From assembly GCF_918797505.1 (NCBI RefSeq), contig NC_092799.1, forward strand, positions 12,300,295-12,364,294: a stretch of 64,000 nt of DNA. Reading direction: 5' to 3'. This DNA is from Bemisia tabaci (lineage: Eukaryota > Arthropoda > Insecta > Hemiptera > Aleyrodidae). The notes under the pieces were generated by a model. That model saw only the letters and a program-made list of their open reading frames with translations. It did no database searches and was not told the origin of the DNA. Below, one piece after another: positions 4,495-58,700 of this stretch (positions are counted from its first letter, which is position 1; each line of letters begins with the position of its first letter). A program made the position numbers and the translations under genes.

Positions 4495-5150
4495 GCCGCA
4501 CAGTGGATCAAGTCAATTAGAGAGGTCGGACATGAAATTTTTGACAAGAACTGCAAATTTTGATGTTTAACTCTTCAGATTTTAAACTTCAACGGGTACA
4601 TTTCCAAGAAAATCTTACAAGGAAACCAATTAAACCACTTTTAAAACCTCAAAGTTTTGTATAACACACTGAAAAAAAAATCTCGGTGTATTTACTAAGA
4701 AAAGGGTAAAATTACCAAGAATTCAGGGTTCTATTTGATCCCAGTTTTTTCTTGGTAAAATTACCATTTATGGAATTGGTAATTTTACCGAGAAATCTCG
4801 GTAAAATTATTGAACTCTCTCGGTAATTTTACTGAACCTTGGTAAAAAAGCCAATATTTTTCTCGACTGGGGTAGAATTACTGAGATAAAACGGCAAAGT
4901 TACCGGGAATCGATTACCAATAAAAGTGGTATTCTTACCTAAAAAAACAGTAAAAATGCCGGTTTTTAGGTAAGCTTACCAGTCTGTCTTGGTAAAACTA
5001 CCAATAATTGGTAAAAAAACGAAATGGTAACGGTACCAACGGACCTTGGTAAAAACGCCGAGAATTTTTTTTTTCAGTGCGGAGTAATGAGCGTTTAAAG
5101 TTTCCAAATTTTGTCCAACTTCCTCTATTGACTCGATAAACTGTGCGCCG
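4495..5150. mobile_element. Family E MITE interrupted by a nested element
   Basis: The left end GCCGCACAGTGGATCAAGTC, with GGTCGGACATGAAATTT, and the right end TTGTCCAAC...GACTCGATAAACTGTGCGCC match the uninterrupted copy at 20896-21138. About 413 bp of the motif-iterated element at 4667-5079 has inserted into its interior. Confidence 0.8.
4667..5079. mobile_element. Motif-iterated TIR element built from GGTAAAATTACC
   Basis: The termini CACTGAAAAAAAAATCTCGG and its inverse (CCGAGAA, T10, CAGTG) bound 413 bp. The interior repeats GGTAAAATTACC-like motifs on both strands more than ten times, for example TTGGTAAAATTACC, GGTAATTTTACCGAG, CTCGGTAAAATTATTG, TCGGTAATTTTACTGAA and TTGGTAAAACTACC. 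There is no ORF. The ends resemble TA-targeting Tc1/mariner-type MITEs, but a clean target duplication is not evident. Confidence 0.85.
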
Positions 5151-5684
5151 GCCCCGGCCCCGGCGTAACAAGTTTGCGGCAATCAAAGTAAAATGCGTGA
5201 ATTCGCTCGCGCAAATTAAATTTGCAGGATGTGTGCTTAAATATTAGACGGAATGCATGGTGCTCCAGGGATAAACCGCCCGAAGGAGCGTCTTCTATGG
5301 CTCTAAAAAATGGTATGTAGAGCATTGGTTATTTTTGCGGATGGAAATATGAAAAACTGTCGGAGGGATCGAGTTTTATTTCATGGTTTTTCGGAAATTG
5401 GCTTGTGGTGATTACGCCGAGGAGCCTAGAATTCTTGACCACATTCATTCCCTAATTTTAAACTGATTTCTGGGAACTCATTCCTTATTGAAAAACCGAA
5501 GCTTTCTCCTATATCCACGGGATATTTTCTGAATTAACAAACCATATGAATTTCTAGAATTCCGCGTATGGAAATCGAATTTTCACTCCTTTCAGCAGAT
5601 TTCTTGGCACAAGTTCTTTTCAATTCCAAAAGCGTGCTTGATGTTTGTATTATCCGGTCAATGAAAAAAGTCATATGGATTATT

Positions 5685-6345
5685 TATCATGAAAGTAATG
5701 AAATAAGAACGGAAATCTTGAAACACCGCTATGGAGATACGTGGTTTTGCACTTCAGTCGGTGCGATACGGACATCCATCAAGTTTAAAAAAATGCATCA
5801 AGTCCCCGTCACCGCCGACCAACGCGTATGTCGATCGAATCAACTACAGGTAGTATGAGCAGGGAGTCAAAACGCCTTCAACTTTTTGAACGCAATACGG
5901 ACATCCGTCGAGGTTGTATAGTTGTATCAAGGAGCCGTAGCAAGCGCGTCCCATTGTTTATCGTTACAGACGAATATAAGTTGAGTGAGGAAAGTCATAA
6001 TGCCTTCAATTTTATACATACATATTTTTGGGCAAAATGAGAGACGACGTTTCTCCATTTGCGACGTTGCAGACTTCCTTAGAAATTTTATTTTTCTTTC
6101 GAGAAGCTAGTCAACATAAAACTTAAATTCTCCATGATTTTTCGTATTTGATAGCAGAAGATTAAGTTCCGAAATAGTCGTAAATTTGGATTGTTCCTCA
6201 TGGAAGAGATGAAATAAGAACGGAAATTTTTAAACACCGCAATGGAGATACGTGGTTTCCCACTTCAGACGGCGCAATACGAACATCCATCAAGTTTAAA
6301 TAGTTGCATCACGTCCCCGTCACCGCCGACCAACGCGTCTATCTA
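5685..6345 (+). repeat. Direct duplication of an A-fragment plus D unit
   Basis: 5685-5830 and 6192-6340 are direct repeats of about 150 bp: GAAATAAGAACGGAAAT, AAACACCGC, GGAGATACGTGGTTT, GACATCCATCAAGTTTAAA and GTCACCGCCGACCAACGCG. Each combines the right end of family A with a D unit, so the fusion predates the duplication. A degraded A left end (GCGACGTTGCAGACTTCC) lies between them near 6060. Confidence 0.75.
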
Positions 6346-6860
6346 AAATTTCTATCCGCCCGGACTCAAAAAGCGTCGTCGCTCCATAAAGCTGTTTACA
6401 AAAATGATGGTATCTCGCGAACCAAAAAATTTCCTCGCAAGCAATATTATATCGATGGATGCGGAATCGAACGAACTATCGATTAGACAACTTTTTATTC
6501 AAATTTGAAGATAGCTTTTTTGGGTATTTGCGGATTTGTAATAGTTGTCGAATTAAAAAATCGAATAATTGGCAACAATGCATGTAAAAATTAGTGCGAC
6601 ATTAAGAACATGGTCATTTCCTAAAAGTGCGCAATTTTTTAAGGGTTTTCGTTAAAACTGCAACTTCATAACTCAATTTTAAGGCCACTTACGGAATTTG
6701 CCTGTTTTCAACTTGGCAACGCTGAAGCGCGCGGGAAAAATTTCGGGTGAACTTGCCAACGCCGAAAAAAGACGTGTCATGTAATAGGAAACAACATATC
6801 CAACTTCGGGCAAAATCCAAGAGGGGGCAAAATCGCCGATTTTGTATAACCCTCTTTTTA

Positions 6861-6985
6861 AATTGGACGTACTTTTGCCAAACGAAACTATGTGCATTGT
6901 GGCGTGATCTCTGTTATGAATAAATTCTTATGGGTCTCCATGTCTAAATGCACACAGTTCCGTTTGGCAGAAATACTTCCCATTT
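6861..6985. mobile_element. Small MITE, relative of 2866-2990
   Basis: Left TTTTGCCAAACGAAACTATG with TGCATT faces right AATGCACACAGTTCCGTTTG with GCAGAAATAC in inverted orientation, about 120 bp overall. Confidence 0.7.
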
Positions 6986-6989
6986 TTAT

Positions 6990-8016
6990 GATGATTTTAA
7001 GATTTAAATATGCCATTCAAGAGGTCGGTACTGACAACACATCAATAACATATAGGTCTGATTAACAATAGGTGCACACATATAGGTGCTTAAGTTTTCA
7101 CAGTAACAGTAACAGTTCTTCCGTAAGAATAGCACGCAGTAACCGCGCAACTCCTTAAATCGGTGCGTGTTTTCAAAACTCCTTCAATTTCGTAGCTATG
7201 CAATTTGATCTCCGAGGAGTTAAAATAGTTGCTCGATGTGGAAGTATGCGTATGGCTACGGCGCAGCGCGATTAAATGAAACTGCTGGCTTCACAGTCAC
7301 GAGTAACCGGATTCTCTCAAAGTGTCTTCACACTTCATTTTGTCAAGTTTGAGATTCGTGACCTCAGGGAGTTGATGTAATCGCTCATAATCTGGAGTCT
7401 GAGGAGCTATGCGATATATTGATTGATCTGCCATTTAAACCTATGGAAATGAGTGTTCAAAACGAATGTGACTTGCATTTAATTAAAATCAATTTGGCGC
7501 TTGATTCCGTTTAACAGAAATACGTTTGATTGCCTATCGATAACCGCAAAAATCATAAAAATCGGCCCAGTAGAACGCTGAAACTAACTGATTTTTCCCT
7601 GATTTCCCCTATCACTTTTCAATCCCTAATAAAATGCCACTTTTTCCCGGTTACTACCGATTCTTGACAGCAGAGATTACGCCCTTCGTCAAATAATCCG
7701 TTCATTCCATCACAAATCCGACGGTCGGATGACAACTCTCAGCGACTGACGTCAGGAACAAATAAAACGACGATGCAGCGAGGCGGCGAACTCTCGGCAT
7801 TACCACATCGCGCATGCATAATGGATTTTCGATGAAAGCGAGAGTCAGGGAACGTTGCCGAAAGAATAGAGAGGATCCCAACCACGATGCTACAGCGTTA
7901 AGAAAGAACGACTTATCAGCCATCAGACGTTTCCAAATTTCCCTTGAGATATCACAATTTTTCGGGTAAATTTATAAATGTCCTTCTTTCGATTTTTCAC
8001 AGAGTATCGCTCTTAA
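6990..8016. other. No recognisable feature
   Basis: Non-repetitive to the eye. The only ORF (73 codons, 7702-7923 minus) matches no family I know and shows no domain signature. A weak D-like stretch (CTCCTTCAATTTCGTAGCTA) occurs near 7180. Confidence 0.4.
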
Positions 8017-8884
8017 TAAACCACTAGACAAGGTACGAACTTAAGCATTCTGATACAAGTTTCTTGACCAGAATTTTACGTAGAACGCGATTTTTGCAAC
8101 GAAAATTACTGGTATCAACTCCTAACGGAGATATTAATATTGTCATGGGAACGGAGTTCCCCATGATATTACAATCGTTCCGTTGCTTTCGCTATGGGAT
8201 TCCCTATACCTCTGCGACCTTGAGCGTTTCGCCCAGTCTCCGATTTTTGGTTGATTTTCCGATGTATCAAAAACCGTTGTATTTTTTAGCCAATCATGTC
8301 TCTACGTCAAGTTGTGTTGATTGCTAAAATTCGCTTTCAGCGAGTTTTTTTCCAACTTGAGATGTCGTGTCTGACTGGTAAATCTGCGCAGATCCACGAC
8401 GTTCCGTTTTTAGGCAAATTCTTTTTTTTGGGAGGTTCTGATTGGTTATTTTTCGCCATCAGTTTTCTGTTCGTTGGTGCAAAAGATCGCCTACCTCGTT
8501 GCTCTTGAGAAGCCGCCATTATCCCACCTCAAATTTTACAAATAGAAATAAAGAAATTATAACTATTGTGCAAGGTGGAAAACTGCTCTGGAGGACCCGT
8601 TACGGATATATGAGCCAAAATCGGAACTCGATTGATTGATTTATTCCATGAATACAGAAATATTGCCTCAGCTTACTGCCGCGATGGCAAATGCCTGCTG
8701 ATATGAACCTTGAGACACATGATAGCATAGGCAAACAATGTCTCACAGAGAAAGGCGCTTAGCTCATTTCTCCAGAAGCTACGAAGACGCGAATCGCCGA
8801 ATCGCTCAAGGACAACTCTTGTGATAAGTCCCGCCCATCGTCCGAGTCTTTTAAATGCTATTTTTTTCCCTCCCATTTGCCGAT

Positions 8885-8975
8885 CTGTGATAGCCTAGTC
8901 GACTGAGGCGCCCCATATTTTTGATAAGGTGCGGGCAATAGGTGATCGGGAGTTCGATACCCGGCGATGGGAGAT
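8885..8975 (+). other. tRNA-like (pol III box) segment within M
   Basis: An A-box-like TAGCCTAGTCGACTGAGG and, about 45 bp later, a B-box-like GGGAGTTCGATACCCG are spaced as in a tRNA. This is probably the tRNA-derived head of a SINE or a decayed tRNA. A full cloverleaf could not be drawn. The homologous segment in the other M copy is at 24110-24205 on the minus strand. Confidence 0.55.
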
Positions 8976-12776: not shown

Positions 12777-13262
12777 TCAGATTCCAGATTTTGAAAGGTT
12801 TTTTTCTGGACGGAACGTCTTTTGAAAACTAGAGCCTGAGCAGTGGCGTAGACAAGGGGGGGGGGGTCCAGGGAGTCTAGGCCCCGCCCCCTTACACTGA
12901 AAAAAAAAAAAAAAACACATTGGATCTAGAGTCCAGACTCTTAAAAACATCGACAGTAAAAAGTATCTTGATTCAATCAAAATCTAGCCTAAATCAAGAA
13001 TCAAGCCTCTTAATTTAAGCAGATTTCGTTTGGATTCAAGCAAAAATCCGATTGAATCAAGAGTATTTTTTCTTATTAATGATTTCAAGAGTCTGGACTC
13101 TAGATCCAATGTGTTTTTTTTTCCCTGTGTTCAGATTCCAGATTTTGAAAGATTTTTTCTGGACAGAACGTTTTTTTGAAAACGAGAGCCTGAGCAGTGG
13201 CGTAGACAAGGGGGGGGGGGGTCCAGACAAGGTCCAGGGGGCTTGGACCCCGCCTCCTTAGC
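12777..13262 (+). repeat. ~115-bp direct duplication flanking a K element
   Basis: 12777-12892 and 13131-13262 share CAGATTCCAGATTTTGAAAG, TTTTTTCTGGAC, GAGCCTGAGCAGTGGCGTAG and a G-run. The first copy stops within the left end of the hAT-type element, the second carries the whole element. The K fold-back at 12895-13129 lies between them. Confidence 0.85.
12895..13129. mobile_element. Family K fold-back MITE
   Basis: CACTGAA with a long A-run and CACATTGGATCTAGAGTCCA at the left faces the inverse GACTCTAGATCCAATGTG, T-run and CCCTGTG at the right. The interior also pairs (CTTGATTCAATC / GATTGAATCAAGAG). It is very similar to 34621-34848. Confidence 0.88.
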
Positions 13263-14492: not shown

Positions 14493-15059
14493 ATATATGA
14501 TTTTCTAAAAAAAATCAATATCTGTTCAGAAGAAAAATCTCATAGGTTTCAGGACATTTTGTCAACGGTTTTTTGTCCGCGCACCTGTTTTGCCCAGTAG
14601 TTTAAGTCCTTGTGTAAAATTGGCATCAGTGACTTGGTCTAAGCGTCATGTTTAATAGTCCAAGTGTAAAATTCTAGTGACAATATTGAAATGAGTAAAG
14701 TGAGAGAGAAGGAGGTGTTGTTATGATAACTCATTTTGTGAATGAAATGTTACTTTCTCCTTTTGATTCATCATTTCAAATTGTCATTGGTGATCATTTG
14801 GTTTTATTTTTATCCTTAAAATTTTCGAAGCGACAGCATCGATATTAATCTCGATGAGCCGTAGTTGTGTTGAAAGGAACTACATATATACAAAAATCAA
14901 TCATAGAAAAAAAAGAAGCACGCAATCTTTGGTTTTGACCTGTTTGTACATAGATTTATCAGAGTCAAATACGTCCTATTTTGAGCGTTTTGTTGCGCGT
15001 ACACCACGCTGCAGCTCAGTGAAAGCACAAAATATAAAATAATTTTTTAAAGTGCTATG

Positions 15060-15625
15060 GAAATCATTAAATTTGACACGGAATCATCTGAATATTTACA
15101 AAACACACAGTATGTTTTCCTTTAATACATATTTTTCCCCCCATCGATTTAGATGAGGATAATTCATGCAGTGTGTGCAAACATTGCAAAATCATGAGTT
15201 GAAAAACGCTTACTCCGCGAGTTTAAATATTAGATCCGAACACGGGTCGGAGCGTTGCGCTGCCGGCGCGTGTCGTGCACTGGCGCCTACAAACCTAACA
15301 GGGATACTTCACGCAGTGCGCAATGCGTGAAGTATCCCTGTTAGGTTTGTAGGCGCCCCTGCGCGTGTCGCGCTGGTCGCACTCGCCCGCCGCCGCGGGG
15401 CGGCGTACCACGGCGCTTCGAGCAACTATTTCGCAACAGACATGTTGTACAGCATCATACGAAATTAAAGGCGCTCGAACGTATCAAGAATGACAGGTAT
15501 CCTTTGAGAGTACGGAGCTTTCCTCGCAAAATAAAGAAAGATACTACGGCACAAAAAGAGAGCAGTAGTCACAAAACTCACTAAGTTCTCATGTCCATAT
15601 TTAATAACGTTTGGAATAATTTTTG
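15060..15625 (+). repeat. H module with hairpin and D-like unit, stand-alone copy
   Basis: Collinear with 44485-45012: shared blocks include TATTTACAAAAC, AGTGTGTGCAAACATT, the hairpin, GCGTACCACGGCGCTT, AGCAACTATTTCGCA, AGTACGGAGCTTTCCTCGCA and AAAAACTCACTAAGT-like sequence. It holds the hairpin at 15282-15357 and an inverted D unit at about 15410-15480. It is GC-rich around the hairpin and AT-rich at both ends. No gene was seen. Confidence 0.8.
15282..15357. repeat. Family H 76-bp hairpin
   Basis: GGCGCCTACAAACCTAACAG plus GGATACTTCACGCA is followed immediately by its inverse, with at most a 2-4 bp loop around GTGCGCAA. Near-identical hairpins lie at 29896-29971, 40911-40986 and 44678-44753. 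Confidence 0.95.
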
Positions 15626-19677: not shown

Positions 19678-20573
19678 TCGTGCTAACGGGAAAACGCCGT
19701 AACAACATTCGAATGTTGCCGAATCTTCCCTCATCAAATATGTATTTTGAAGGAAAGCTGTTCGTATTTTTCCTTGACATCTCCCAATCTTTGAGAACAA
19801 AAAATGGGTTTTGAGGAAAAGTGAGGTAGGTGAAGGTGAAGTGCAGTTTTGCTATTTCAAGCAGTACATTACGGAAAAAATTAAAAGTTGATTCAGCATT
19901 TATATTGTTGAAAAAATATGCGACAAGTATCAATCGTGGAGTACATTTAAGAATTTTTTTAACGGGACCAGTGTGATTTTCGTGCCATTTTACCCCTATT
20001 AGGTCTGCTCACATGGATGTATCCCTTGCAGGCAACAGACCCGGGGTGGCAAACTTTCATGAAGTATAAAATCTTGAAATTTCACGTGAAATATTTCATG
20101 AGATTTCAGCAATTTATGAAAGATTTTGAAAAATACCGGTTCTTTTCATGTTTCGCAAAAAGTAAAAATTGAGACTTTCTTCTATTTTTGTCTGTTTGAG
20201 TACGGGTTGCATACTCTATAGCCCCTGAAAATTTTGAAATATTTCACAGCCTCGTGAAATTTCATGAAATATTTCAGTAAAATTTCCAATCTTTCATTTC
20301 TCTCCTACCTTTCATGCCACCCTGAACAGACCTGCAAACAAAATTGTCTGTAAAATTCCTCGTCCTTTTGACAGAAGATCTTTGCTACACTTCGCGATTG
20401 ATCCTGTTGATCCTGGGATCAGCCTTAAATGTCGTCTTTTTGTTAGCTAAGGACGACTTGGAAGAAGAATATTCACAACTTATAATACATGAATAACCAA
20501 TAACTACTTATTTAATTAAAGGAAATTTGGCAACATCTGAGGGTTCTCACGTCGTTTTTCCTTAGGACGAAAG
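19678..20573. mobile_element. Family C copy expanded by insertion
   Basis: The left end CGTGCTAACGGGAAAACGCC with ATTCGAATGTTGCCGAA and the right end GGAAATTTGGCAACATCTGA with CACGTCGTTTTTCCTTAGG are inverted and 0.9 kb apart instead of 0.25 kb. The hAT-type element at 20042-20324 accounts for part of the excess. They may be two unrelated C ends. Confidence 0.5.
20042..20324. mobile_element. hAT-type element, perfect 8-bp duplication, TGAAATTTCA motif interior
   Basis: The left end CGGGGTGGCAAACTTTCATG and the right end CTTTCATGCCACCCTG (TIR CAGGGTGGCA) are flanked exactly by AACAGACC at 20034-20041 and 20325-20332. The interior is rich in short palindromes such as GAAATATTTCATGAGATTTC, GTGAAATTTCATGAAATATT and TTGAAATATTTCA. 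No ORF was seen. CAGGG ends with an 8-bp duplication indicate the hAT superfamily. Confidence 0.92.
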
Positions 20574-20895: not shown

Positions 20896-21138
20896 GACGC
20901 ACAGTGGATCGAGTCGATAGGAAAGGTCGGACAAAATTTGGAAACTTGAGAAGCTCAGAACTCCGTTCACACGAAATTTTGAGGTTCTAAATAAGTGGTT
21001 CCATTGATTTTCTCGTAAAATTCTCGTGTAAAAGCACCCCTTGGAATTAAAAATTTGACTAAATTAACATCGAAATTTACAGTCTCAGTGACAAATTTCA
21101 TGTCCGACTTATTCCGAACGATCGTTCCACTGTGCGGC
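20896..21138. mobile_element. Family E MITE, uninterrupted reference copy
   Basis: The left end GACGCACAGTGGATCGAGTC and the right end GATCGTTCCACTGTGCGGC are inverted repeats bounding about 243 bp. Internal GGTCGGACAAAATTTGG pairs with the inverse of AAATTTCATGTCCGAC. Confidence 0.85.
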
Positions 21139-21464
21139 GATGCCACTGGATCTCTATAAAATCAACCCCCGATCCACAATAAAGAAAAAGGTCAGGTTGT
21201 AACGGTAGCGCATCCATACTCTACGAGAGTGTCCCAAAGTTAGAGGTGTTAGTATAGTGTTAATATTTTCAGAAGCGATTTTCGGGATTAAAATGAGACT
21301 TTTTTGCTCTGTATGTTTTCCCAGAAAATCCCCCCACCCCTCTTCAGAGTTACCGCCCCTCAAATTTTAAGCCGAAAATACTTTTTGTTTTTATTGTGAC
21401 GAAAGTTATGAATAAAATGCATGAACATTGGCGCATCTATGTTTCTTCACATTATGAACACAAT

Positions 21465-27112: not shown

Positions 27113-27236
27113 AATTTAGCAGATTCCACAACTGTATCGCTTGATATACAAAAACATGGGTCATGCTTCCGTAATCTAGATAGAGCGGGCTCGTTTCAGC
27201 ACTACGACCGCAAAAAATCATGGGAGTTGGCCCAGT

Positions 27237-27441
27237 CACTGAAAAAAATAGCTCTGTTCACAGGGCTCCTGCACTTCTTTTGTAACAGTCACAGGAGTTT
27301 CCGTTACGAGGACAGAGTACTCTGTTCCAACGACCGAAATTCTGTTCTCACGACAGAAAAATTCTGTAAATGTAGCAAAGAAACTGCAGGAGCCATGTGT
27401 ACAGAAGGTTCTGTCGTCAGCACCATCTATTTTTTTCTGTG
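27237..27441. mobile_element. Family K-like element with iterated TTCTGT motif
   Basis: The left end CACTGAAAAAAATAG and the right end CTATTTTTTTCTGTG bound 205 bp. TCTGTTC, ACGACAGAA, TTCTGTCGT and ACAGAGTACTCTGTTC recur inside on both strands, and GGGCTCCTGC pairs with GCAGGAGCC. A TA follows the right end. Confidence 0.78.
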
Positions 27442-27894
27442 TAGGACGACGGAGAGAACTGCGACAAGAGATGAAAGTTTAGGGGGTCAAAAGGCTCATG
27501 AATCCGAAACCTGAATGGAAAAGGTTAATTTAGAAGCTATAACCTACCAAGAGCCAGAGAAATCATAGAAATTGGCCCGCAGTAGAAAATACTGTGATAA
27601 AGAATGAAAATTTAGGGGATCAGAGAGTTTATGGTAAAGTTTACAATAATTATGATTATTAAGTTTTCATATTTTGCCATGGACTTGCTTGGCTGCAGGG
27701 CGCCCCGTCTACGAATTTGTATTATTGTGTGGGGGGCGTGAGGGAAGGGGGTTGGGGGGTTGCGTCATGTGGCGGTGCGGTGGGCGATGCCAAGCCGCGC
27801 TTCAGGCACGGGATTGATTGGTCGATGCTTCAATCTTGCGAATTAGTGTCGAAGTAATTTGGCCCATCGCCAGGGACGCGGGGACGCTACGGTC

Positions 27895-28433
27895 GCCGCA
27901 CAGTGGATCCAGCCAATCAGAAATGTCGGACATGAGGTTTTCAACTAAAATTGCAAATTTTGATGTTAGTATGTCTACTAAAACAGGCTGATCAAAAATA
28001 AGTACTTGTACCGTACTTTTTCAGTACATTCTCAAGAAATTCAGTGACTCCACCAACAGAAAAATTCCGTACTTTTTCAGTACCTCCATTTGACGAAATT
28101 CGAAAATTTCAAAACTTTGAAATTGTGACAAAAATGACAAAAAATCCGAACCTTTTTTCGGAATTTCCGCACTTTTTCAGTGCTTCCGGATCGCCCTTAA
28201 AAAAGCGGTACTTTTTCCGGACTTTCCGAAAATTCCGGACTCGTAGGCACCCTGGATGTTTAATTTGTCAAATTTTGAATTTGAGGCAGGGGTGCCTGTA
28301 AAAGAAAATTTCACAAGAAAACCAACGGAACCACTTTTAAAAACCTCTAAGTTTTGAATGAGCGGACTTTTAAGCTTTTAAAGTCTCCAAATTTTGTCCG
28401 ACCTTTTCCGTTGACTCGACCCACCGTGCGCCG
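27895..28433. mobile_element. Family E MITE interrupted by a motif-rich insertion
   Basis: The left end GCCGCACAGTGGATCCAGCC with TCGGACATGAGGTTTTC and the right end TTTTGTCCGACCTTTTCC with GTTGACTCGACCCACCGTGC match E. The insertion (about 27970-28258) repeats GTACTTTTTCAGTAC and TTCCGG-type motifs and ends CGTAGGCACCCTG, an hAT-like CAGGGTGCC terminus. GATGTT stands on both sides of the insertion. Confidence 0.75.
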
Positions 28434-34370: not shown

Positions 34371-34593
34371 CACTGGTAAAAAAAAAAACCTCTTGGTTCA
34401 AGAGTGCAGTTTCTTGTCGCCGGAGTGTTGCTTGAAACAAGAGTCTGGACTCTTGTTTCAAGCTGATTTTGAATTGAATCAATGCAAAATCCGCTTGAAA
34501 CAAGAGTTCAAGACTCTTAAATCCGGCGACAAGAAACTGCACTCTTAAGTCAATGCACCGCGGCATTGGTCCAAGAGGTTTTTTTTACCAGTG
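34371..34593. mobile_element. Family K fold-back MITE with TA duplication
   Basis: CACTGGTAAAAAAAA at the left faces TTTTTTTTACCAGTG at the right, flanked by TA on both sides. The interior pairs through AGAGTGCAGTTTCTTGTCGC / CGGCGACAAGAAACTGCACT and CTTGAAACAAGAGT. Short ends and a TA target fit Tc1/mariner-type MITEs. Confidence 0.9.
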
Positions 34594-34620: not shown

Positions 34621-34848
34621 CACTGGTAAAAAAAAGACTTTCGATCTAGAGTCCAGACTCTTGAAAACATCGACAAGAAAAAAGACTCTTGATTCAATCA
34701 GATTTAAGCTTAAATCAAAAGGATATCCGCTCAAATTAAGAGGCTGGGTTCTTGATTTAAGCTTAAATCTGATTGAATCGAGAGTATTTTTTCTTGTCGA
34801 TGTTGTTAAGAGTCTGAACTCTAGATCCAATGTGTTTTTTTTCCAGTG
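34621..34848. mobile_element. Family K fold-back MITE with TA duplication
   Basis: CACTGGTAAAAAAA / TTTTTTTTCCAGTG ends, flanked by TA. The arms pair through GATCTAGAGTCCAGACTCTT, CATCGACAAGAAAAAA and TTAAGCTTAAATC. It sits 27 bp from the previous K element and is close to 12895-13129. Confidence 0.92.
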
Positions 34849-34947: not shown

Positions 34948-35450
34948 ATGGAGATGTTGTATGTGTGAGGAATTTGCGATTTGATTGTTGATTTTTGTGT
35001 AGAAGTTCGCGAGAAACACGATGGTGCCACTGGTTTTGTCTGAAATCAACTCCCAAGCTCCAAAAAAGCTCTCAAGTTGAGGACAAAATGGAGGGGACCC
35101 ACGCTATCCTGAGAGTCCACCTCAACATCAAGACAAACTCTCCATGCAAAGATAGGGAGGAAATACATTAGCAGGGTTGCCGTGTTTTCAGTTTCAGAGT
35201 CCCCAAATAAAGTGGCAGCCCTGTCAATGTGTTTGCTCCCTATCTTTGCATGGAGAGTTTGTCTTGATGCAGAGGTGGACTCTCAGAATAGCGTGAGATA
35301 TCCCCTCCATTTTGGCCTCAAATTGAGAGCTTTTTTTGAGCTTGGGTGTTGATTGCAGAAAAAACCAGTGGCACCATCGTGTTTCTCGCGAACTTTTGAA
35401 TAAGGATCAACAGTCTAGTCGCAAATTCCTCACACATGCAACATCTCCAT
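34948..35450. repeat. 500-bp fold-back, ~225-bp arms
   Basis: Outer pair ATGGAGATGTTG / ACATCTCCAT and GTGTGAGGAATTTGCGA / TCGCAAATTCCTCACAC; middle pair GTTCGCGAGAAACACGATGG / CCATCGTGTTTCTCGCGAAC; inner pair ACAAACTCTCCATGCAAAGA / TCTTTGCATGGAGAGTTTGT. The loop is near 35187-35211. The two arms differ at scattered sites. Confidence 0.93.
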
Positions 35451-36463: not shown

Positions 36464-36805
36464 GTAACAACCGGAGCCCAGTTAGACAAAAAATATTTTT
36501 AAGAAATTTTAAAAATATTAAATTAATATTTTCACAAAATATTTTTAAAAACTTTTTATATTATTTTTAAAATCTACTCATGTTAACCTCAGTTAATTTG
36601 AAAAATATTTTTTGAATATTTTCAAAATATTTCTTGAATTTTTTCAAAGTATTGTAAGAATATTTTAAAAATATTGCACAAGTATTGCATCCTAGAGTGC
36701 GCGCTCTCTAGGTGATTTGTTTGGTACTAATGTTCTTCCGAACGTGCAGATGCGTTGCTACCAGGTGGTGGATCATCGTAGAGTTGTGACTTACTTTAAA
36801 ATCCG

Positions 36806-36892
36806 CGCCGTCCTAGTCGGGATTAGAACCCACGCCTCGGGATGGAGTTGCAATCCGTAGTCCAGTACTTTACCACCAGACCAGCCAGGCTT
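36806..36892 (-). other. tRNA-derived SINE-like head
   Basis: On the minus strand an A-box TGGTCTGGTGG and a B-box GGTTCTAATCC are 42 nt apart, within CTGGCTGGTCTGGTGGTAAA ... GAGGCGTGGGTTCTAATCCC. The spacing and boxes are tRNA-like, but a clean anticodon stem is absent. Confidence 0.6.
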
Positions 36893-36989
36893 CCTACAGA
36901 TGGGCCCCTAAATTCAATCTCTTAACTATCGCAGGCCTCTGAGTCCGTAATATGTTTGTTTATTGACGGATTCTTATGATATTTTACCA

Positions 36990-37200
36990 GACTTTATTAT
37001 TTATTATTTTTTTTATTGTTTTTTATTTCATCATGTAATTTTTTCATTCTCATTTTTTTAACTCTCTCTCATTTTTTTTTTAACTATCTCTTCTTTTTAA
37101 GTATCATTTTTTTTTTAATTCATTCTTTTTTTTTAACTCTCATTTTTTTTTAACTTTCTCTTTTTTTTATTTTTTTTTTATTTTTTTTTTTTTTAAACCA
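36990..37200. repeat. T-rich low-complexity tract
   Basis: T-runs are broken by TAACTCTC/TAACTATCTC-like spacers at about 30-40 bp intervals. Confidence 0.85.
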
Positions 37201-37520
37201 AATTAACGTTTTTTATAATTGCGTCTTTTTCCAGTTTTAATTATTTGGGCCTTTTTCTAGTTTGAATTTATGTCGATGTATTTATGTTTATGGGCCGCCG
37301 TATGGGTAAAAATGCGACAACATTTCAACAAGACCGAGAAAATATTTTCTCTCCGAGAATTTTTTTTCCCCCAACGAGAAAATATTCTTGCTTGAGAATT
37401 TTTTTATCTTCGCGAGATAATAATTTTGCTACCCTCGGGAGAATATTTACTTTAACGAGATAATACTTTCTGCGCCGACAATTTTTTTCGTCGCGGAGAG
37501 AGAAAAAAAATGAATATAAA

Positions 37521-38137
37521 TGGGCCTGTTGCAAACTTTTGCTAGAGCAAAAATAAGAGTTGTTTCTTATAGATAATGCCTCAAAAATCACGATGAGCGC
37601 ATCGGCAAAGTCTGAAATGCACTCATAACTTCACAATCTGCGTAAGAAATTTGCGTTTTTTTAAGCTTCCCGCTTCAAAAACGATACTACGGCATAGGTG
37701 AACATTTTGTTAGAGGAGTCGCTCCATCGTCGGCGATATTCATCATGGCCGACGCTTGCACGCAGTTCCGCGCGTAATTCAAGGAGAGTTCAAGGTCAAT
37801 CAATTCGGGCGTGGAAAATATGAACGTTAACACACCGATTGTTATCTGGTCTAATCCAGTTCAGGTGTTATCTCGTCCCATCAAACGTGTTTTGGCGGAT
37901 TGGCGTCGGCTATGATGATTATTGCCGACAATGGAACGACTCCTCTTACAAAATGTTCACCTGTGCCGTAGTATCGTTTTTGAAGCGGGAAGCTCAAAAA
38001 ACCGCAAATTTCTTACGCAGTTTGTGAAGTTATGAGTGCATTTCAGAGTTTGCCGATGCGCTCATCGTGATTTTTGAGGCATTATCTATAAGAAACAACT
38101 CTTAGTTTTGCTCTAGCAAAAGTTTGCAACAGGCCCA
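37521..38137. mobile_element. Inner TIR element, ~200-bp TIRs
   Basis: TGGGCCTGTTGCAAACTTTT, GCTAGAGCAAAA, AAGAGTTGTTTCTTATAGAT, ATCACGATGAGCGCATCGGC, GAACATTTTGT and GAGGAGTCG are all present inverted in the right half. The unique centre is only about 210 bp (37730-37940) and has no coding signature. Confidence 0.92.
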
Positions 38138-38247
38138 TTCACGCCTCCGTTCCTGCGTTGCCCGACTGTACAATTAGGAGGCAGCAACGTTTTTGGAATG
38201 GTCATAGTAGAGTACCTTTATAGCGAGAGGCGAGAGGCGAGAGTATA

Positions 38248-38394
38248 GACGCTATTAGTGGCGACGTCATCATAGGGATTCTCCATTATATCGAATTGGA
38301 TCCAAACAATAACATTGGCATAACCTCTTTCAATGCTACCAATGTGAAAAAATCGATAGATATCGCTTTCCTGTGACGTTGCACTAATAGCGTC
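38248..38394. mobile_element. Small MITE, AGACGCTATTAGTG ends
   Basis: AGACGCTATTAGTGGCGACG at the left and GACGTTGCACTAATAGCGTC at the right are inverted. Confidence 0.78.
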
Positions 38395-39499
38395 TGAGCT
38401 TAGGCTTAGGGCCCAAAAGTGCAGCCACCCTTCTGAGCAACTTCTAACACACGAAATTTCACTGCCAGCCTACAGATTTCAATTCTAACCAAGATGGCCA
38501 AGAATGTACATAAATGAGCGTTCTTTCGCAAAAATGAGTAAAATTATGCAAAAAGTAAGCCAATCACATATCATGGGGCTCCTGGAGACTTGCCTCGCTC
38601 CGCCAGTGCTAAACCATGGCTAAACCGAGCCGAACGCACGGTCTACGTGATGCAATGTCTTTCCGGTGTACTATCCATTTCAAGAAAGTCGCCTATTTCT
38701 TTTTAGCAGCTTTTAGTACAGGCTGGCAACGTAGTGACGGTGGCTTGAGTGCATAATTTCTCTCTAAACTCGGAAGAAAAATTATCAAGGCAAAAAATAT
38801 TGCCTCAATAAAAAAAATTCTCGCGGCAAAAAAAAATAAATTCTCAAGAAAAAAAAGTTTTCTCGTTGGGGGAAAAAAAAATTCTCAGAGAGAAAATATT
38901 TTCTCAGTCTTGTTGAATGTTGTCGCATTTTTACCCATACGGCGGCCCATAATGTTATTTATTTATTGTTATTATTTCTTTTTTTTCTTATAATTTTTAT
39001 AATATTAATTCAAACATTTTAAAAAAATGTAATATTTTAAAAATATTATGAAATATTATTTTTAAAATATTAAAAAAAATAATTATGATATATTTTAACA
39101 ATATTATAAAATATTATTTTAAAAATGTTTACTTTTTATATTTTTAAAGTATTTTTGGAATATTTTAAAAATATTATAAGATATTATTTTTAAAACGTTT
39201 ACTTTTAATATTTTTAAAATATTTTTAAAACATTTTAAAAATATATTTTATAATATTTTTAAAATGTTTACATTTTATATTTTAAAAATATTCCACAAAT
39301 ATTTCAAAAATATGTCATATTTTATATTTTAAAAGTATTTTGAAAAATACTTTTGGAATACTTTTAAAACATTCTTGAAATATTTTAAAAATATAAAGAA
39401 GAAAATATTTTCTGTAAATATTTTTGAAATAAGGTGCATATTTTTAAAATATTTTAAAAATATTGCTGTCTAACTGGGAGAACTACCATTGAGGCGCAC

Positions 39500-43971: not shown

Positions 43972-44210
43972 TTCGCCCTTGCAGTGCTATGTGGTGCAAC
44001 ACTACTCAGAATCTCTGCTTGATGTCTATGCATCACGCAGAGCCCTCAGCTTGACTGATTGATTCCATGATCACAACCTGCGTTTTTTGACTTACCGCAT
44101 CTGTTCATTGTATTCGTGGTTCGTGTGGTTTGCATTGTCAATATGTTTTTTGCGACGCCGCAGACTTCCTGTCATACGTTATTTTTTTAACGGAAAACTA
44201 CTCAACAGCA

Positions 44211-45166
44211 CCCTGATAAAAATTGGCGATAGGAGCTGCATTTCAAAATACCATAGGAGTTCTTATAGCCGACTGACGAAGGCGATAGAAAAGCATACAG
44301 CTGGCTGTAGAAAGTGGAACAAACCATACGGCGCGGGCTACACGAAGCGATAAAAAATTATACAGCCGGGCTATAGTTCCTATCGCCGGGCTTTACACTT
44401 TACCGCTTGGCTGTTGCTTTTTCTCCATCGGCTATAAAAGGCTATAGATACATTGTGCAGAAATTCGTGTGCTTTGTAAATCTTTAAGTTTGTACGGAAT
44501 CACTTTAATATTTACAAAACGCAAATTATATTTTCCTTAACTACATATTTGCTTCATCAAGTAAAATGAGAATAATCCATACAGAGTGTGCAAACATTTC
44601 AAAGTCATGAGTTTAAAAACGCTGACTCCACGAGATTAAACATTAGAGCCAAACACAAAGCGGAGCGGCGGCGCACTGGCGCCTACAAACCTAACACGGA
44701 TACTTCACGCATTGCGCAATGCGTGAAGTATCCCTGTTAGGTTTGTAGGGGCCAATGCGCGTTTTGCGCTGGTTGCCCGCCCGCCGCGCCGCGCCGCAGC
44801 GTACCACGGCGCTTGAAGCAACTATTTCACACCAGAGGTATTGCACCGTATCATACGAAATTGAAGGCGCTCCAACATATTAGGAATGGCAGGCATCCTT
44901 TAAAAGTACGGAGCTTTCCTCGCAAAATAAATCAAGATACCACGGCCCAAAAAGAGAGCGGTAGTCCAAAAACTCACTAAGTCCTAGCATCCGTAATGAG
45001 TAACGTTTAGCATACACTTTATCGCCAGGCTTTGCTTACTCGGCATCGGCTAGAAAAGGCTATAAGAAATTGTGTTGCCGGCTATAGAAGCTATTGGAAA
45101 TCTTACAGCCGGCTGTAGGTCTATAGTATTTTGGAACACAGATTCTACTGCCAATTTTTACCAGGG
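44211..45166. mobile_element. Family P TIR element with iterated TATAGCCGGCTATA motifs
   Basis: CCCTGATAAAAATTGGCGAT, AGGAGCTGC at the left faces the inverse of TCTACTGCCAATTTTTACCA, GGG at the right. The arms contain CTTATAGCCGAC, ACAGCTGGCTGTAG, TACAGCCGGGCTATAG, CATCGGCTATAAAAGGCTAT, GCCGGCTATAGAAGC and ACAGCCGGCTGTAG. It inserted into an A element and itself contains the H module. Confidence 0.85.
44485..45012 (+). repeat. H module nested in P (hairpin 44678-44753)
   Basis: Collinear with 15060-15625 along its whole length, including the hairpin, the flank GCGTACCACGGCGCTTGAAG and the D-like AAATTGAAGGCGCTCC. The hairpin has one mismatch in its left arm (ACACGG for ACAGGG). Confidence 0.82.
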
Positions 45167-49363: not shown

Positions 49364-51612
49364 AAAGAGCCTCCCAAAAAAGAGGCTGATTTTGGCCCTT
49401 TTTTAGGTATTCGATTCGACCATCGGACCAAGGTTTAAATGGAAGCTTATATTAACAGAAAACTCAGGAAAAAATTTCAAGATGAGTATAGGAACCGTTT
49501 TCGAGTTACGGGGGGGCAAAAGGGTCACAATCCGGCCTAATGTTTTGCTGTTTTCTTGTAGAATTGATGTATCGGCGGGGATCTTATCGTTGTTTACGTA
49601 TGTGTAACACAAGGATTCCTACGTGTTTTTACACGTAGAATCGATTTTTAACGTTGCCGAATCGATATACTGATCAGTTGAATCGATTTTGAACGATTTA
49701 TTAAGGAAAATCGATGATTTTTCAAGGTCGAAATTGTTTATCTTCGATTCATGAATGAATAAATGCATCTGAAATGACTGAAGCACACGTAACCCTATGT
49801 ATTTTGATACGTAGAATTGATTTTTAACGTTGACGAATCGATTTATCTATCGTTTGTACCGAATTTTTGCGATTTTTTACGGAAAATCGATGACTTTTCG
49901 GAATTAGAATCTGGTTTGCTCCATCCGAGATCGGAGATATGTACCCAACATGATTGGAGCACATCGACTCTTACGTATTTTTATACGTGGAATCGATATA
50001 TAACCTCGATAAGTCGATATATCAATCAATTGTATTGAATTTTTTCGATTTTTTGCGGAAAATCGATGGTTTATCGGGATTGAGATAGGTGTCTCTCCAT
50101 CCAAGATCGGAGAAATGTACCTTTTATGATTGGAGCACATCAATTCTTACGTATTTCTACACGTAGAATCAATTTTAAAACGTCGACGAGTCGATATATC
50201 GATCTGACATACACAACTCTTGCGATTTTTTACGGATATTCGATGGTTCTTTTGGACTGGCATTGGAAACATCTACCAGACATGACTGGAGCACATCGAT
50301 TCGTTTGTGATTATTCTCGCAAAATCAATTTTTAAGAAATCGACGAGTCGATACACTGACTGGTCATATTGATTTCTTGTGATTTTTATGGAAAATCGAT
50401 TTCTTGAACAGGAATGAAATTGGTTACTAATAACGGTCCGAGGGTGGAGATATGCACCTGACACGGTCGGAGCACGCCGTTCCCACGTACTTTTACACGT
50501 AGAATCATTTTGAAGGTTGACGAGTCGGTTTGGCGATCTGACAAATCAATTTTTTGTGATTTACGAAAATCCGATGGTTTTTTGAAGTTGAAATAATTTT
50601 GATTTTAATCAAAATGGGAATGAAGGAATGCACCCGACACGAAATGATTCTACGTGTAAAAGTACGTGGGAACGGCGTGCTCCGACCGTGTCAGGTGCAT
50701 ATCTCCACCCTCGGACCGTTATTAGTAACCAATTTCATTCCTGTTCAAGAAATCGATTTTCCATAAAAATCACATGAAATCAATATCGACTCGTCGACGT
50801 TTAAAATTGATTCTACGTGTAGAAATACGTAAGAATTGATGTGCTCCAATCATAAAAGGTACATTTCTCCGATCTTGGATGGAGAGACACCTATCTCAAT
50901 CCCGATAAACCATCGATTTTCCGCAAAAAATCGAAAAAATTCAATACAATTGATTGATATATCGACTTATCGAGGTTATATATCGATTCCACGTATAAAA
51001 ATACGTAAGAGTCGATGTGCTCCAATCATGTTGGGTACATATCTCCGATCTCGGATGGAGCAAACCAGATTCTAATTCCGAAAAGTCATCGATTTTCCGT
51101 AAAAAATCGCAAAAATTCGGTACAAACGATAGATAAATCGATTCGTCAACGTTAAAAATCAATTCTACGTATCAAAATACATAGGGTTACGTGTGCTTCA
51201 GTCATTTCAGATGCATTTATTCATTCATGAATCGAAGATAAACAATTTCGACCCTGAAAAATCATCGTTTTTCCTTAATAAATCGTTCAAAATCGATTTA
51301 ACTGATCAGTATATCGATTCGGCAACGTTAAAAATCGATTTTACGTGTAAAAACACGTAGGAATCCATGTGTTACACATACGTAAACAACGATAAGATCC
51401 CCGCCGATACATCAATTCTACAAGAAAACAGCAAAAAATTAGGCCGGATTGTGACCCCTTTGCCCCCCCCCCCCCCCGTAACTCGAAAACGGTTCCTATA
51501 CTCATCTTGAAATTTTTTCCTGAGTTTTCTGTTAATATAAGCTTCCATTTAAACCTTGGTCCGATGGTCGAATCGAATACCTAAAAAGGGGCCAAATTTT
51601 GGGAGGCTCTTT
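49364..51612. repeat. 2.25-kb palindrome with ~170-bp ATCGAT-rich internal units
   Basis: The left arm 49364-50508 and the right arm 50644-51612 are inverted copies around a 135-bp spacer. Ends: AAGAGCCTCCCAAAA / TTTTGGGAGGCTCTT. Two ORFs (79 and 73 codons) are identical in both arms, so identity over 49817-50143 is essentially complete. The left arm has about six diverged units of 155-185 bp, each holding ACGTA...TACACGTAGAATCGAT, GACGAGTCGATATATCGATC and TACGGAAAATCGATGG. The right arm is 176 bp shorter and lacks one unit (left-arm about 50185-50360). A G-run of 7 in the left arm is a C-run of about 15 in the right. No protein or RNA signature was seen. Confidence 0.95.
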
Positions 51613-53490: not shown

Positions 53491-53494
53491 ACCT

Positions 53495-55130: not shown

Positions 55131-55137
55131 ACTTTAC

Positions 55138-55853
55138 GGGTAATTTCACGATAACTGGAATATTTTTGTCGCCGTATAAAAGACAACACATTTTTTGGTC
55201 ATATCTTTAGTAGTAATGATAATCATTCGAATTTCATTGGATTAGTCTACACAGCGTTACATGTTATAATGCTTTTCAAAGATTTATCGCTCTACTCTTC
55301 AATTTTAATATATAAATGACCGAAAATCTGCAGTCTGTTACGCTGACTATTTACCGCGTAACAGACAGCACATTTTTTGCAATTTACACGGAGAAAAAAA
55401 TATCGTGCGTGGGACTCGCAGTTTAGGTTATATGGATCTCTGAAGTTTTCAGATTGAGCATCTGAACACTTTAGGTCTAGCTGTGGAAGTTCGGATCGCA
55501 CATCTATAACTTCAGTTCTTACATCAGAAGTACTTCAGATGTAATAACTGAAGTTTCAGATGTGCGATCCGAACCTCGACAGCTAGACCTAAAGTGTTCA
55601 GATGCTCAATCTGAAAACTTCAGAGATCCATATGACCTAAACTGCGGGTCCCACGCACGAGGTTTTTTTCTCCGTGTACATGATATTTATTGAGAAGTAA
55701 AGCAATAAATCATTAGAAAGCGTTATAATACGTAACCCTTTGAAGATTAATGCGAAAAAATTCGAGTGATTATCATTTCTACTAAAAATATGACCGAAAA
55801 ACGTTTTGTCTGTTTCGGCGACAAAACTATTCCAGTTGTCGCGAAACCACCCT
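55138..55853. mobile_element. Family J element split by a K palindrome
   Basis: GGGTAATTTCACGATAACTG at the left and CCAGTTGTCGCGAAACCACC, C at the right. The interior follows 16484-16908 (AGACAACACATTTTTTGGTC, TAGTAGTAATGATAATCATT, ATTTACCGCGTAACAGACAG, AGCAATAAATCATTAG). Flanks TTAC/TTAT suggest a decayed 4-bp duplication. Confidence 0.88.
55387..55676. mobile_element. Family K 290-bp near-perfect palindrome with TA duplication
   Basis: CACGGAGAAAAAAA at the left and TTTTTTTCTCCGTG at the right are flanked by TA on both sides. The uninterrupted target sequence (AATTTACATAATATT) is visible at about 16715. The arms pair almost completely, e.g. AAGTTTTCAGATTGAGCATC / GATGCTCAATCTGAAAACTT and TTCGGATCGCACATCT / AGATGTGCGATCCGAA, with the centre near 55532. 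Confidence 0.95.
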
Positions 55854-55854
55854 T

Positions 55855-56490
55855 ATATACATCCAGGGACCTTCCCGACTCCACTCCCGGACCACGAAGT
55901 CGACTGCCGACGCGACGTATCGCACAACTTCCATTTTTAAGGACCCGGAGATTTCTGTGGTCGAGGTCAAAGTAAGAATGAACGGGTTTGATGTGAGGGA
56001 ATTCTATGAGTCTAACAAGCACTTTCTAGGGCGCTGCTCGATAGAGGTGCTTGAATGAGGAGAGGGAAAAACTCGGAAATGAATTGGTCAAGTAAAAGCT
56101 CGCCTTTCAACTGTCGACGTGACGCTGACGTCCAGGTTGCAGTAATCAGACCTTGTGTCGCGTCGTGTCGCCGCACAACGGGGCGGGATCCTGTGGGAGG
56201 TCGCACATTAAATTTTGGACTAAGTCTCTCGATTTTTATGTTAATTTTGTCACACATAAAGTAAAAACCTTTAAGTTATAATATCTCTAAAAAAGAAGGC
56301 AGAGAATTTTACAATCCCTGTTCTTTTAGATAATAATCATCGTATTATCTAACGTTACCATGTAAAATTAATGCGATTTGTTTAGTTTTAGTTTTAAGCC
56401 GCGTAGATAGATACACGGAAATACTTATAGTAGTTACGTTATATTTAAATAAAATTCCTTCAAAAAAATTGTCACATTACGATTTGTATG
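55855..56490. other. No recognisable gene
   Basis: Opposing 69-81 codon frames at 56012-56264, no known motif. Confidence 0.35.
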
Positions 56491-56494
56491 GAAT

Positions 56495-56805
56495 GTGCTT
56501 TGGAGGGAGTTTTAAGGGAAAACCAATGAAACCAGTGGCGTGGTGTGCATTGCGATTTATCGATCGATGTGCCATTTTAATCCTATGGAAAAGGATCGAT
56601 AAACAGGGTGTTTGCAGCGAACACCTTAATAATCGATTCTTTACCATAGCTTCAAATGGGACATATCGAAAACCGATCATTCACGCCCAGCCACTGAATG
56701 AAGCCACTTTTGAAACCGTTACCTTTCGTATTAGCATAGATATGAGCTTTGAAAGTTTCTATATTTTGTCCGACTTCTCAAATTTACTTGCTCCACCGTG
56801 CGCCA
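56495..56805. mobile_element. Family E remnant
   Basis: Right-end blocks AAAGTTTCTATATTTTGTCC, GACTTCTC and CTCCACCGTGCGCCATCG resemble E, as does AAAACCAATGAAACCA near 56520. The left end is missing. Confidence 0.5.
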
Positions 56806-57404
56806 TCGCCGTTGTATGAGCAGTGCATCGCACCACCCTTCCGACAAAGATTTTCCATCCGAAACAGTTGCCAGCAACAGCCTTAATCCCTCTTTATTTC
56901 ACTAATGAAAGAAATAGATTGGAGATTTATCGCTGAAAATGGGTTTGAGGGGCGATTATGACTAAAAATACGAATTATGCGGCCCGCGTTCGAGTGCCGG
57001 AGAATCCGCAGTATGCGCCAAAATCTGCCCTTAGATTCGGAAAGAGACCAAAAATTACCAAATCATGGTGCATTCCGTAAATTATAAACCTTAAATGCGC
57101 AAAAAATCGTAGAGCTGAGGCAATCCAGCTAGGGTGAGGGTCCAAGAACGGCCCTTATCGATATAGCCCTCCTTTGACTAGAATCAGTCCGACTATATGA
57201 TATACATTTTCACATTCCTACAGTTTTTCGATTAGCTGCTCGATCGATTAATCAAATTTTCGGATGATCGAAAATTCAATGCTCGAATCTAATCAAAATT
57301 AATCGATTAATGTGCTAACCTGTGCCTGGAATGCCCACATGGCATCCCAGGTGCATGTCATTCCATCAACCGATTAATTTATCGCTGAACGAAAAATCTG
57401 CACG

Positions 57405-57525
57405 TTGCCTAAAGATATATCTCATAGCTTTCTATAGCCGGCTATTAAATAGCTAAAAGTTTATAGCCTTTTACAGCCGATGCATGGCGATGAGGATATA
57501 GCCAACAGCTATAAGAGGTAAAGTC
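57405..57525. repeat. Family P-like TATAGCC motif patch
   Basis: TATCTCATAGCTTTCTATAG, CCGGCTATTAAATAGC, TTTATAGCCTTTTACAGCCG, GGATATAGCCAACAGCTAT. Confidence 0.65.
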
Positions 57526-57889
57526 AAGGGTGGCTAGATTTTTTGATCTTTTTTTGCCCAAGTTTGTTTGATCCGAACACTGTCCCGTTATAAAGTTAAT
57601 CCAATAATTTTTAGGTGCAATGTTCTATGAACCAATACTTTACTTAGTCCAGTTATGAAATGGTATAACTGCTGAGATTTTGCCAAATAATGGGATGTAA
57701 CCCTTAGATTCCTAAGGTGGATCAAATTGAGTAAAAGATCGCTGGAAACACGCACTTCGCAGGTTCTATGGGGATGGTACATCCGAACTGAGATGTAAGT
57801 CTACAAATACATCTTTGAAAAAAACAAGACATCAAATTGAAAAAAGTACAAAATTAAATATCAACACAACCGAAGACAGGAGAGACGTT

Positions 57890-58430
57890 TTTGAGTCTGG
57901 TTTTTATAAGTTTTCTCCCAAATCAGAGAGAAAATTCATTAGCAGCATAGAGCGGAGCATCGCGGGCTCTCGCCTTGCGCCGTAGCGCCTTCAATTTTGC
58001 AGATGCAACACGGACATCCATTAAGCACGAATAGTCGTATCCCTGCGCCGTCATCAACGCGCGACCTTTTCCTTGCTCTGTTCCCATGTTGTGTTGGTTC
58101 CGTTTGTCTTATTTGTACTGATGCTTCAAGGGCTACGTTAGCAAAACAGCCGAAGGTAGAAGAGATGTAATCGGATCTTTTTTTATATTTTCTCTCGAAT
58201 CCAGGCGATACCTCATTGACGGCATAAAGCGGCGTAGAAGATCGATGCGAGATCACGCATCGCGCCTTCAGTTTTGCAGATACAATATGGACATCCATCA
58301 AGTACGAATAGATGTATCTCTGCGCCGTCATCAAAGCGAGTCCTTTCTCTTACTTTATTTCCATATTGAGTCGGTTCCGTTTGTCTTATTTATAGCGGGG
58401 ATTAAAGAGGAAATTGAGCAACACAGCCAA
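57890..58430 (+). repeat. Tandem duplication of long-form D unit, ~265-bp period
   Basis: First: GCGCCTTCAATTTTGCAGAT, GCAACACGGACATCCATTAA, GCACGAATAGTCGTATCCCT, GCGCCGTCATCAACGCG, GTTGTGTTGGTTCCGTTTGT, CTTATTTGTA. Second: GCGCCTTCAGTTTTGCAGAT, ACAATATGGACATCCATCAA, CGAATAGATGTATCTCTGCG, CCGTCATCAAAGCGAG, GAGTCGGTTCCGTTTGTCTT. This pair defines the extended D consensus. Confidence 0.88.
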
Positions 58431-58539
58431 AGTATGACTTGGATTAAATTAGTTGGTCAAGCTAGGTATCGGGTGAAAAAAATTGGGTTAAGTGTCTAGC
58501 TACCGAGCCAAACTACACAGACTACAGGTACAGACTATC

Positions 58540-58700
58540 GAGGCGATAGACACTACAGTTCGACTGTATAATTTTGTATCGCTTCGTATTGCCCGGCTGT
58601 CTGATTTTCTTTCGCTTTATATCGCCTTCTATAGCCAGCTATAAAAGTTCTTGTGGTATTTTGGAACGCAGCTCCTACAGCCAATTTTTACTAGGGTTAC
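58540..58700. mobile_element. Family P right end
   Basis: TATAGCCAGCTATAAAAGTT, GGTATTTTGGAACGCAGCTC, CTACAGCCAATTTTTACTAG, GG matches the right end at 45110-45166. Confidence 0.75.

Follow-up and report, generated by a model that had tools for sequence, protein, structure and literature searches.

Iterated palindromic motifs in the window

The window, by which we mean the whole 64,000-nucleotide stretch of Bemisia tabaci DNA analysed here (C7:12300295-12364294, in a searched genome of 610 Mb and 151 contigs), carries a series of mostly short transposable elements in which a short palindromic motif is iterated, with a different motif from element to element. An earlier note on this sequence had named seven of them (here E1 to E7) and a possible eighth at 1-330 (E8), and had proposed a single class, crossing superfamilies, whose interiors are filled with one motif. 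To us the palindrome arrays resemble the docking sites known for transposases near transposon termini; they would be a varied collection of a familiar type, with a motif per family, and not a new class. No transposase was recognised among the window open reading frames (ORFs) of at least 110 aa, which were read by eye with no library scan. All features are given in window coordinates on the + strand.

Motif densities exceed those of shuffled sequence, as the note had held. With 200 dinucleotide shuffles per element, the cited motif or its core surpassed every shuffle at all eight places (E1 GGTAA, 18 copies vs. a shuffle maximum of 6; E2 TGAAA, 18 vs. 7; E3 TTCTGT, 6 vs. 2; E4 GTACTTTTTCAGTAC, 2 vs. 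0; E5 GCTATA, 6 vs. 5; E6 AAATATT, 43 vs. 12; E7 AATCGAT, 26 vs. 8; TGTGTCA at 1-330, 5 vs. 2). Two results of this kind speak against iteration: the full E2 palindrome TGAAATTTCA, allowing up to two mismatches, had 4 copies and did not exceed its shuffle maximum of 5, and the commonest k-mer of an element was often a poly-A word standing no higher than in the shuffles. Because the motifs had been picked after reading the sequence, a blind 6-mer scan was run as well, in which 35 of the 425 scanned segments exceeded all 20 shuffles, where chance would give at most about 20. Its top rows begin at 55351, 1, 19951, 4801, 20101, 27301, 27151 and 34351, and two of the top elements (55387-55676 and 34371-34593), both with CACNG-poly-A ends and TA duplications, were absent from the earlier note.

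A census then covered the window and 235 kb outside it, finding elements by their ends and duplication alone (200 shuffles for elements, 40 for controls; six near-duplicate loci, L063, L065, L070, L071, L074 and L079, left out). Iteration was significant in 27 of the 32 elements and in 24 of the 200 control segments. These loci are no random sample, having been fetched for E1, E2 or hAT, and the 27 include twelve E2 copies and four E1 copies that are not independent; one row (4499-5145) is significant solely through the E1 inside it. Grouped by hand, the 32 elements make ten families, seven of which have a member at p ≤ 0.05, the E10 family included (3 of 4). An automatic clustering (6 of 8 families vs. 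7 of 40 controls, Fisher p = 0.003) was superseded, since it lumped 11 elements as one E1 family and unlike ones must have been merged. With density test, blind scan and census all above their controls, we reject a chance origin of the iteration.

MITEs with CAC...GTG termini

Six window elements, starting at 4667, 12895, 27237, 34371, 34621 and 55387, have CACNG-poly-A ends, and their top 6-mers differ (TGGTAA, ACAGAA, CAAGAG, AGAGTC and TCTGAA, the element at 12895 being a relative of that at 34621). E1, E3, E9 and E11 have the CAC...GTG termini expected of CMC/CACTA miniature inverted-repeat transposable elements (MITEs).

E1 (4667..5079) is a CACTG-A9 MITE with GGTAA/TTACC throughout, its 18 half-sites spread uniformly and not concentrated near the ends. 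There are 41 long genome matches, the window copy counted, and the boundaries recur: 20 fetched copies align from query position 1-3 to 405-413 of 413. The motif layout is alike in the 17 aligned rows (the window and 16 of the 20 fetched copies, with L023, L025, L027 and L028 left out). A mariner identity was rejected for E1, since dinucleotides other than TA are duplicated as well; at the window copies of E1 and E3 the 2-bp flanks are not identical, and at E9, E10 and E11 they are identical TA. Two E1 copies, at C10:17427742 and 17428334, share their flanks and lie at a distance of 592 bp (L012, L023, L007), and the evenly spaced E11-like end pieces of L007 suggest tandem amplification of a unit holding E1 and an E11-like end.

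E3 (27237..27441) is a CACTG-A7 MITE with TTCTGT/ACAGAA, and its window copy lacks a duplication that matches; 40 places were scored, the window among them, the others at 90-94%, most beginning at query 12-13 (27236-27237). E9 (34371..34593, CACTGGT-A11, CAAGAG/AAGAGT), E10 (34621..34848, CACTGGT-A8, AGAGTC, with iteration not significant at p = 0.075) and E11 (55387..55676, CACGGAG-A7, TCTGAA/CTTCAG) each have the duplication TA, and the E10 relative at 12895..13129, a CACTG-A16 MITE, has no matching duplication. Relatives of E11 vary in how the motif is spelled: the window copy has CTTCAG five times and CTTCGG not at all, and L038 has them four and five times. The L007 piece, an E11 relative, has a longer palindromic centre.

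E2 and motif-base conservation

E2 (20042..20324) is a hAT-type MITE with CAGGG-type terminal inverted repeats (CAGGGTGGCA, the left tip here being CGGGG) and the duplication AACAGACC on both sides. Its boundaries recur at 30 loci, the window's own included, all kept in the alignment (L042 and L046 have common flanks), and of the 20 loci that were parsed among the 30, 18 have 8-bp duplications agreeing to within two mismatches. With its hAT-type ends and 8-bp duplications, E2 does not form one class with E1 and E3, which have CAC...GTG ends. The TGAAA/TTTCA motifs of E2 form two terminal clusters, at about 13-108 and 183-272 of 282, around a motif-poor centre. Two further hAT-type elements lie at 56533..56696 (a MITE with ends CAGTGGCG and four ATCGAT) and at 60399..61219 (a short element with CAGGGCCGGATT at its ends, an imperfect palindrome at 60425-60440 and flanking 8-mers that differ at 2 positions).

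In both families the divergence among copies is roughly halved at motif bases (E1, 0.0124 vs. 0.0237 at other bases; E2, 0.0314 vs. 0.0608). When CpG and the terminal 14 bp were excluded and bases were compared within strata of base and quarter, motif divergence was 0.0105 in E1, where permutation gave a mean of 0.0200 (p = 0.002), and 0.0320 in E2, where the gap to the permuted mean of 0.0386 is smaller (p = 0.015); the motif mask was derived from the same consensus, so a slight bias is possible in these values.

hATs with long open frames

PF05699 has at least 122 genome matches at E ≤ 0.001 (of 171 candidates, 150 were scored), and sixteen 7.5-kb loci were read, which fall into twelve families when sorted by the length of their ORFs. 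Paired ends and 8-bp duplications were set by script for L069/L070, L072, L073, L076, L080, L082 and L084, and none were set for L075, L077, L078, L081 and L083. The pairs L069/L070, L071/L072, L073/L079 and L074/L080 have long open frames and match within each pair at 99.8-99.9% along the greater part of the element; they have apparently been active recently.

L082, of 2549 bp, has an exact 8-bp duplication, an exact 11-bp terminal repeat and a 647-aa open frame whose protein matches zf-BED and Dimer_Tnp_hAT over cut-offs, and weakly the Hermes transposase chains (E about 0.0003); it is thus a hAT by transposase domain, duplication and terminal repeats alike. Its GGAACC/GGTTCC sites number 14 in the first 200 bp and 14 in the last 350 bp, with none between (14, ten empty bins, 1 and 13 per 200-bp bin). 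The right end occurs at 19 genome places, 3 of them within 250 bp of a listed PF05699 match, so most copies seem to have no gene at that end. Nine other right ends carry 10-15 sites each and differ in length from that of L082 by -6, +12, -12, -12, -12, -13, -18, -24 and -24, eight of these being multiples of 6 bp. The second case is L084 (6152 bp, with a 568-aa open frame holding Dimer_Tnp_hAT), which has 10 and 9 AATATC in its terminal bins. Arrays in both orientations, enriched at the ends and sparse in the middle, were thus found in L082, L084, E5 and the E2 clusters, and not in the uniform E1.

Four other families (L069, L072, L073 and L076), which like L074 encode DUF4371 and Dimer_Tnp_hAT, all begin with CAGGGCC and have, near bp 27-42, each a palindrome of its own: CTAGGCTATAGCCTAG, GGTGCCATGGCACC, GTAGGCCGCGGCCTAC and CAAGCCGCGGCTTG, respectively. 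Taking these with the short window element at 60399, the palindrome halves are complementary at 37 of 40 positions; when the half of one family is paired with that of another, the figure is 82 of 160. Exact repeats of a family's own arm occur at left bp 19 in three of the four families and at right bp 29-30 in three of the four; the exceptions are L072, with one mismatch in its left half-site, and L073, whose right end has nothing above 4 of 6.

Subterminal repeats as the probable explanation

We read the iterated palindromes of E1-E5, E9 and E11, and probably the ends of E6, as subterminal repeat (STR) arrays, that is, putative transposase-binding sites as in hAT and CACTA elements, left after gene loss, and we put the probability of this reading at roughly three in four. 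It is built on the concentration of arrays at the ends of two long-frame hATs, the variation of unit number in one of these, the lower divergence of motif bases in E1 and E2 and the recurring boundaries. STR arrays would be clusters of short sites, in both orientations, by which a transposase or a partner DNA-binding protein finds and pairs the two ends of an element. They would lie on both sides of the transposase gene in an autonomous element; on loss of the gene the two arrays would meet, filling a 200-400 bp MITE that could still be moved in trans, and array length would change by whole repeat units. E1 and E2 would accordingly be descendants of elements with the same arrays. The predicted protein binding is modelled on Hermes, Ac, En/Spm and Kat1; in Hermes, a pair of BED domains binds a quasi-palindrome that is composed of two STRs (PMC10368747).

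The note had itself offered subterminal transposase-binding sites amplified by slippage, which we retain as the best reading: long-frame hATs do have end arrays, and eight of nine copies of one array differ by 6-bp multiples. The comparison of sibling copies that it had called for gave variation in motif number among the L082 right ends; among the aligned E1 and E2 copies no gain or loss of a motif unit was seen by eye. Such whole-repeat variation would also suit an account in which the interiors are inert filler, satellite-like or made by slippage, whose low-complexity arrays grew between two ends that do function, as would the 176-bp tandem units in the arms of E7 and the AT-richness of E6. 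We consider this unlikely, given the reduced divergence at motif bases in E1 and E2, the arrays at the two ends and not the middle of L082 and L084, and motif changes that preserve dyad symmetry between hAT families. Less probable again is retention of the motifs for some role outside transposition, whether as sites bound by host factors or as sequences that form hairpins. Dimeric host factors would suit palindromes found in both orientations, and some whole elements are near-perfect inverted repeats, but the motif differs per family and is tied to the termini, which fits an element-encoded binder better.

Several observations weigh against STR arrays. The note's proposal to look for autonomous partners with the same ends led to none for E1, E2, E3 or E5 in the loci looked at. 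For E2, the sole CAGGGTGGCA end in L059-L078 is that of an E2-like MITE beside L073; for L079-L084 the search was limited to the best pairs of ends, and L075, L077, L078, L081 and L083 are among the loci without ends set. PF02992 (CACTA) has 7 genome matches, and in the two loci read (1.5 kb) the roughly 1.1 kb upstream of the open frames has no CACNG-poly-A end. The proposed CACTA link of the E1-type elements draws on termini and partly on duplications, and the 2-bp duplications of E1 are identical in 9 of 16 parsed copies (20 fetched). Iteration is not seen in some MITEs that have ends of this type (L004, p = 0.22, and the window elements at 35028-35370, p = 0.13, and at 34621, p = 0.075). 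Among the long-frame hATs, L084 has 9 AATATC scattered between its terminal bins, and the L080 end array is GC-rich, with the middle of the ORF also reaching p = 0.01 (ends taken at 1945-5814, where the alignment of copy L074 begins; an outer pair at 1892-6482 also scores well). L069, L072, L073 and L076, four of the seven hATs with ends set, have few sites, with 6-mer p values of 0.05, 0.03, 0.41 and 0.41 for 160-bp ends and 0.34, 0.13, 0.055 and 0.475 for 250-bp ends; in the stretches used for the arm comparison, arms of other families reach 3-6 of 6, one foreign arm matching 6 of 6 inside the terminal repeat. Finally, a section heading of the Hermes paper states that auxiliary transposases bound inside the ends are unlikely to support transposition in cells (PMC10368747).

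That each family has a motif of its own may reflect parallel change in the DNA-binding domain and in the sites that it binds. Of most interest is the switching of motifs in register among the hAT families. We suggest, tentatively and with more doubt than confidence, that one genome holds mutually distinct transposase-operator codes, related hATs keeping similar cleavage ends and nearly the same register (half-site at bp 19, dyad near 27-42, half-site at right bp 29-30) while switching the motif in step at most of these sites, with arrays whose length changes through slippage; by such switching they could be escaping parasitic MITEs that compete for transposase. Joint change of transposase DNA-binding specificity and sites is a question already raised for CACTA elements (PMC2613891), and several motif-distinct families together with several long-frame hATs with their own ends in one genome make it testable. 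The arrays may also help to pair MITE families with transposases where coding sequence is gone.

Comparison with known systems

The note knew of no named class with this architecture, a claim that lacks support: subterminal repeats in both orientations, differing per family, are described for CACTA (PMC2613891) and hAT elements (PMC10368747, PMC3260210, PMC4763223). In hATs (AAACGG of Ac, the STRs of Hermes, TGAATT of Kat1) a short motif likewise occurs in many copies near the ends (PMC10368747, PMC3260210, PMC4763223), and in Kat1 the hexamer occurs six times between two terminal repeats (PMC4763223). L082 differs in having 14 candidate sites near each end, partly head-to-tail. CACTA STRs (the TNPA sites of En/Spm; the soybean Tgm family) resemble those here in their direct and inverted copies near the ends and family-specific motif, and the 14 stem-loops of Tgmt* are a further likeness (PMC2613891); unlike Tgmt*, with its 3-bp duplication, the E1-type elements tend to 2-bp, and an autonomous CACTA partner was not found for them in the two loci read. 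CMC MITEs share with the E1 type the CAC...GTG termini and, given its tendency to 2-bp duplications, probably the duplication length (PMC6004678); no mention of iterated interiors was seen in that account, and the word 'subterminal' is absent from it. The coral CMITE elements are alike in that the interior is suggested to matter for transposition, but there a single interior is combined with terminal repeats that vary, opposite to the pattern of the window elements (PMC2872659). The STR concept is thus well described, and no MITE class defined by iterated palindromes was seen in titles and abstract openings of the open-licence papers searched.

E4 to E8 and the proposed single class

The longer and less regular elements bear on whether one new class exists, in which a shared mechanism such as replication-coupled inversion would make iterated palindromes in any superfamily. 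In E5 (44211..45166, ends CCCTGRTAAAAATTGGC), GGCTATA/AGCCGG occupies two terminal stretches, with GGCTATA 4 times on the left, 2 on the right and 0 in 44471-44985. This middle also matches window 15052-15586 and was first read as a nested insertion; since all 40 scored copies reach the query end at 44480, it may be part of the family. E6 (36477..39478, ends CCCAGTTAGACA) has AT-rich AAATATT arrays at both ends and inside them a separate palindromic core (arms 37519-37755 and 37903-38139). E7 (49364..51612) is a giant hairpin, not of the same kind, with inverted arms of 670 nt, 99% complementary, made of 176-bp tandem units that hold AATCGAT. E8 (1..330) is a TGTGTCA-rich stretch with no left boundary inside the window.

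Iteration is present in all eight, and the claim of interiors filled with one motif gives way at E5, with its empty middle, at E7, where the count comes with the 176-bp units, and at E6, with its separate core. Boundaries recur at both ends for E1, E2, E3 and E7, and at the left end for E5 and E6; E4 has three other, partial copies. The note is in this respect confirmed in part. A single class is in our judgement very improbable, despite the same look under different ends and the longer palindromic centre of one E11 relative: the E5 middle lacks the motif, E7 consists of long units, E10 is weak, and the known STR mechanism already spans two superfamilies. We rejected it on the E5 middle, the tandem-unit hairpin of E7 and the unbounded 1-330, which break the shared architecture; as a class across superfamilies it was drawn too broadly, E7 being another structure.

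Copy numbers and neighbouring repeats

For E5, 39 of 39 other scored copies begin at 44206-44211. The left 243-247 bases of E6 recur at 98-100% on several chromosomes, making twelve copies together with that of the window, one of them beginning 3 bases earlier; this identity suggests that E6 moved recently, and diverged relatives of its left end, at about 71%, exist too. Of 40 genome candidates scored for E7, five other copies span both ends and many others stop inside. E4 (27967..28254) has (C/T)AGGGTGTCTAC-like ends with an altered left tip, the motif GTACTTTTTCAGTAC and, by eye, a 5-bp repeat GATGT on each side. A repeat starting CACAGTGGATC, at 4490-4665, 20971-21139 and 27889-27967, surrounds E1 and adjoins E4, so that these are apparently nested insertions. 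Within E6, window 36800-36890 was picked out by eye as a candidate tRNA gene or tRNA-derived element, and directly after 1-330, at 353-923, a 130-bp unit is repeated in tandem 4.4 times with 95% matches.

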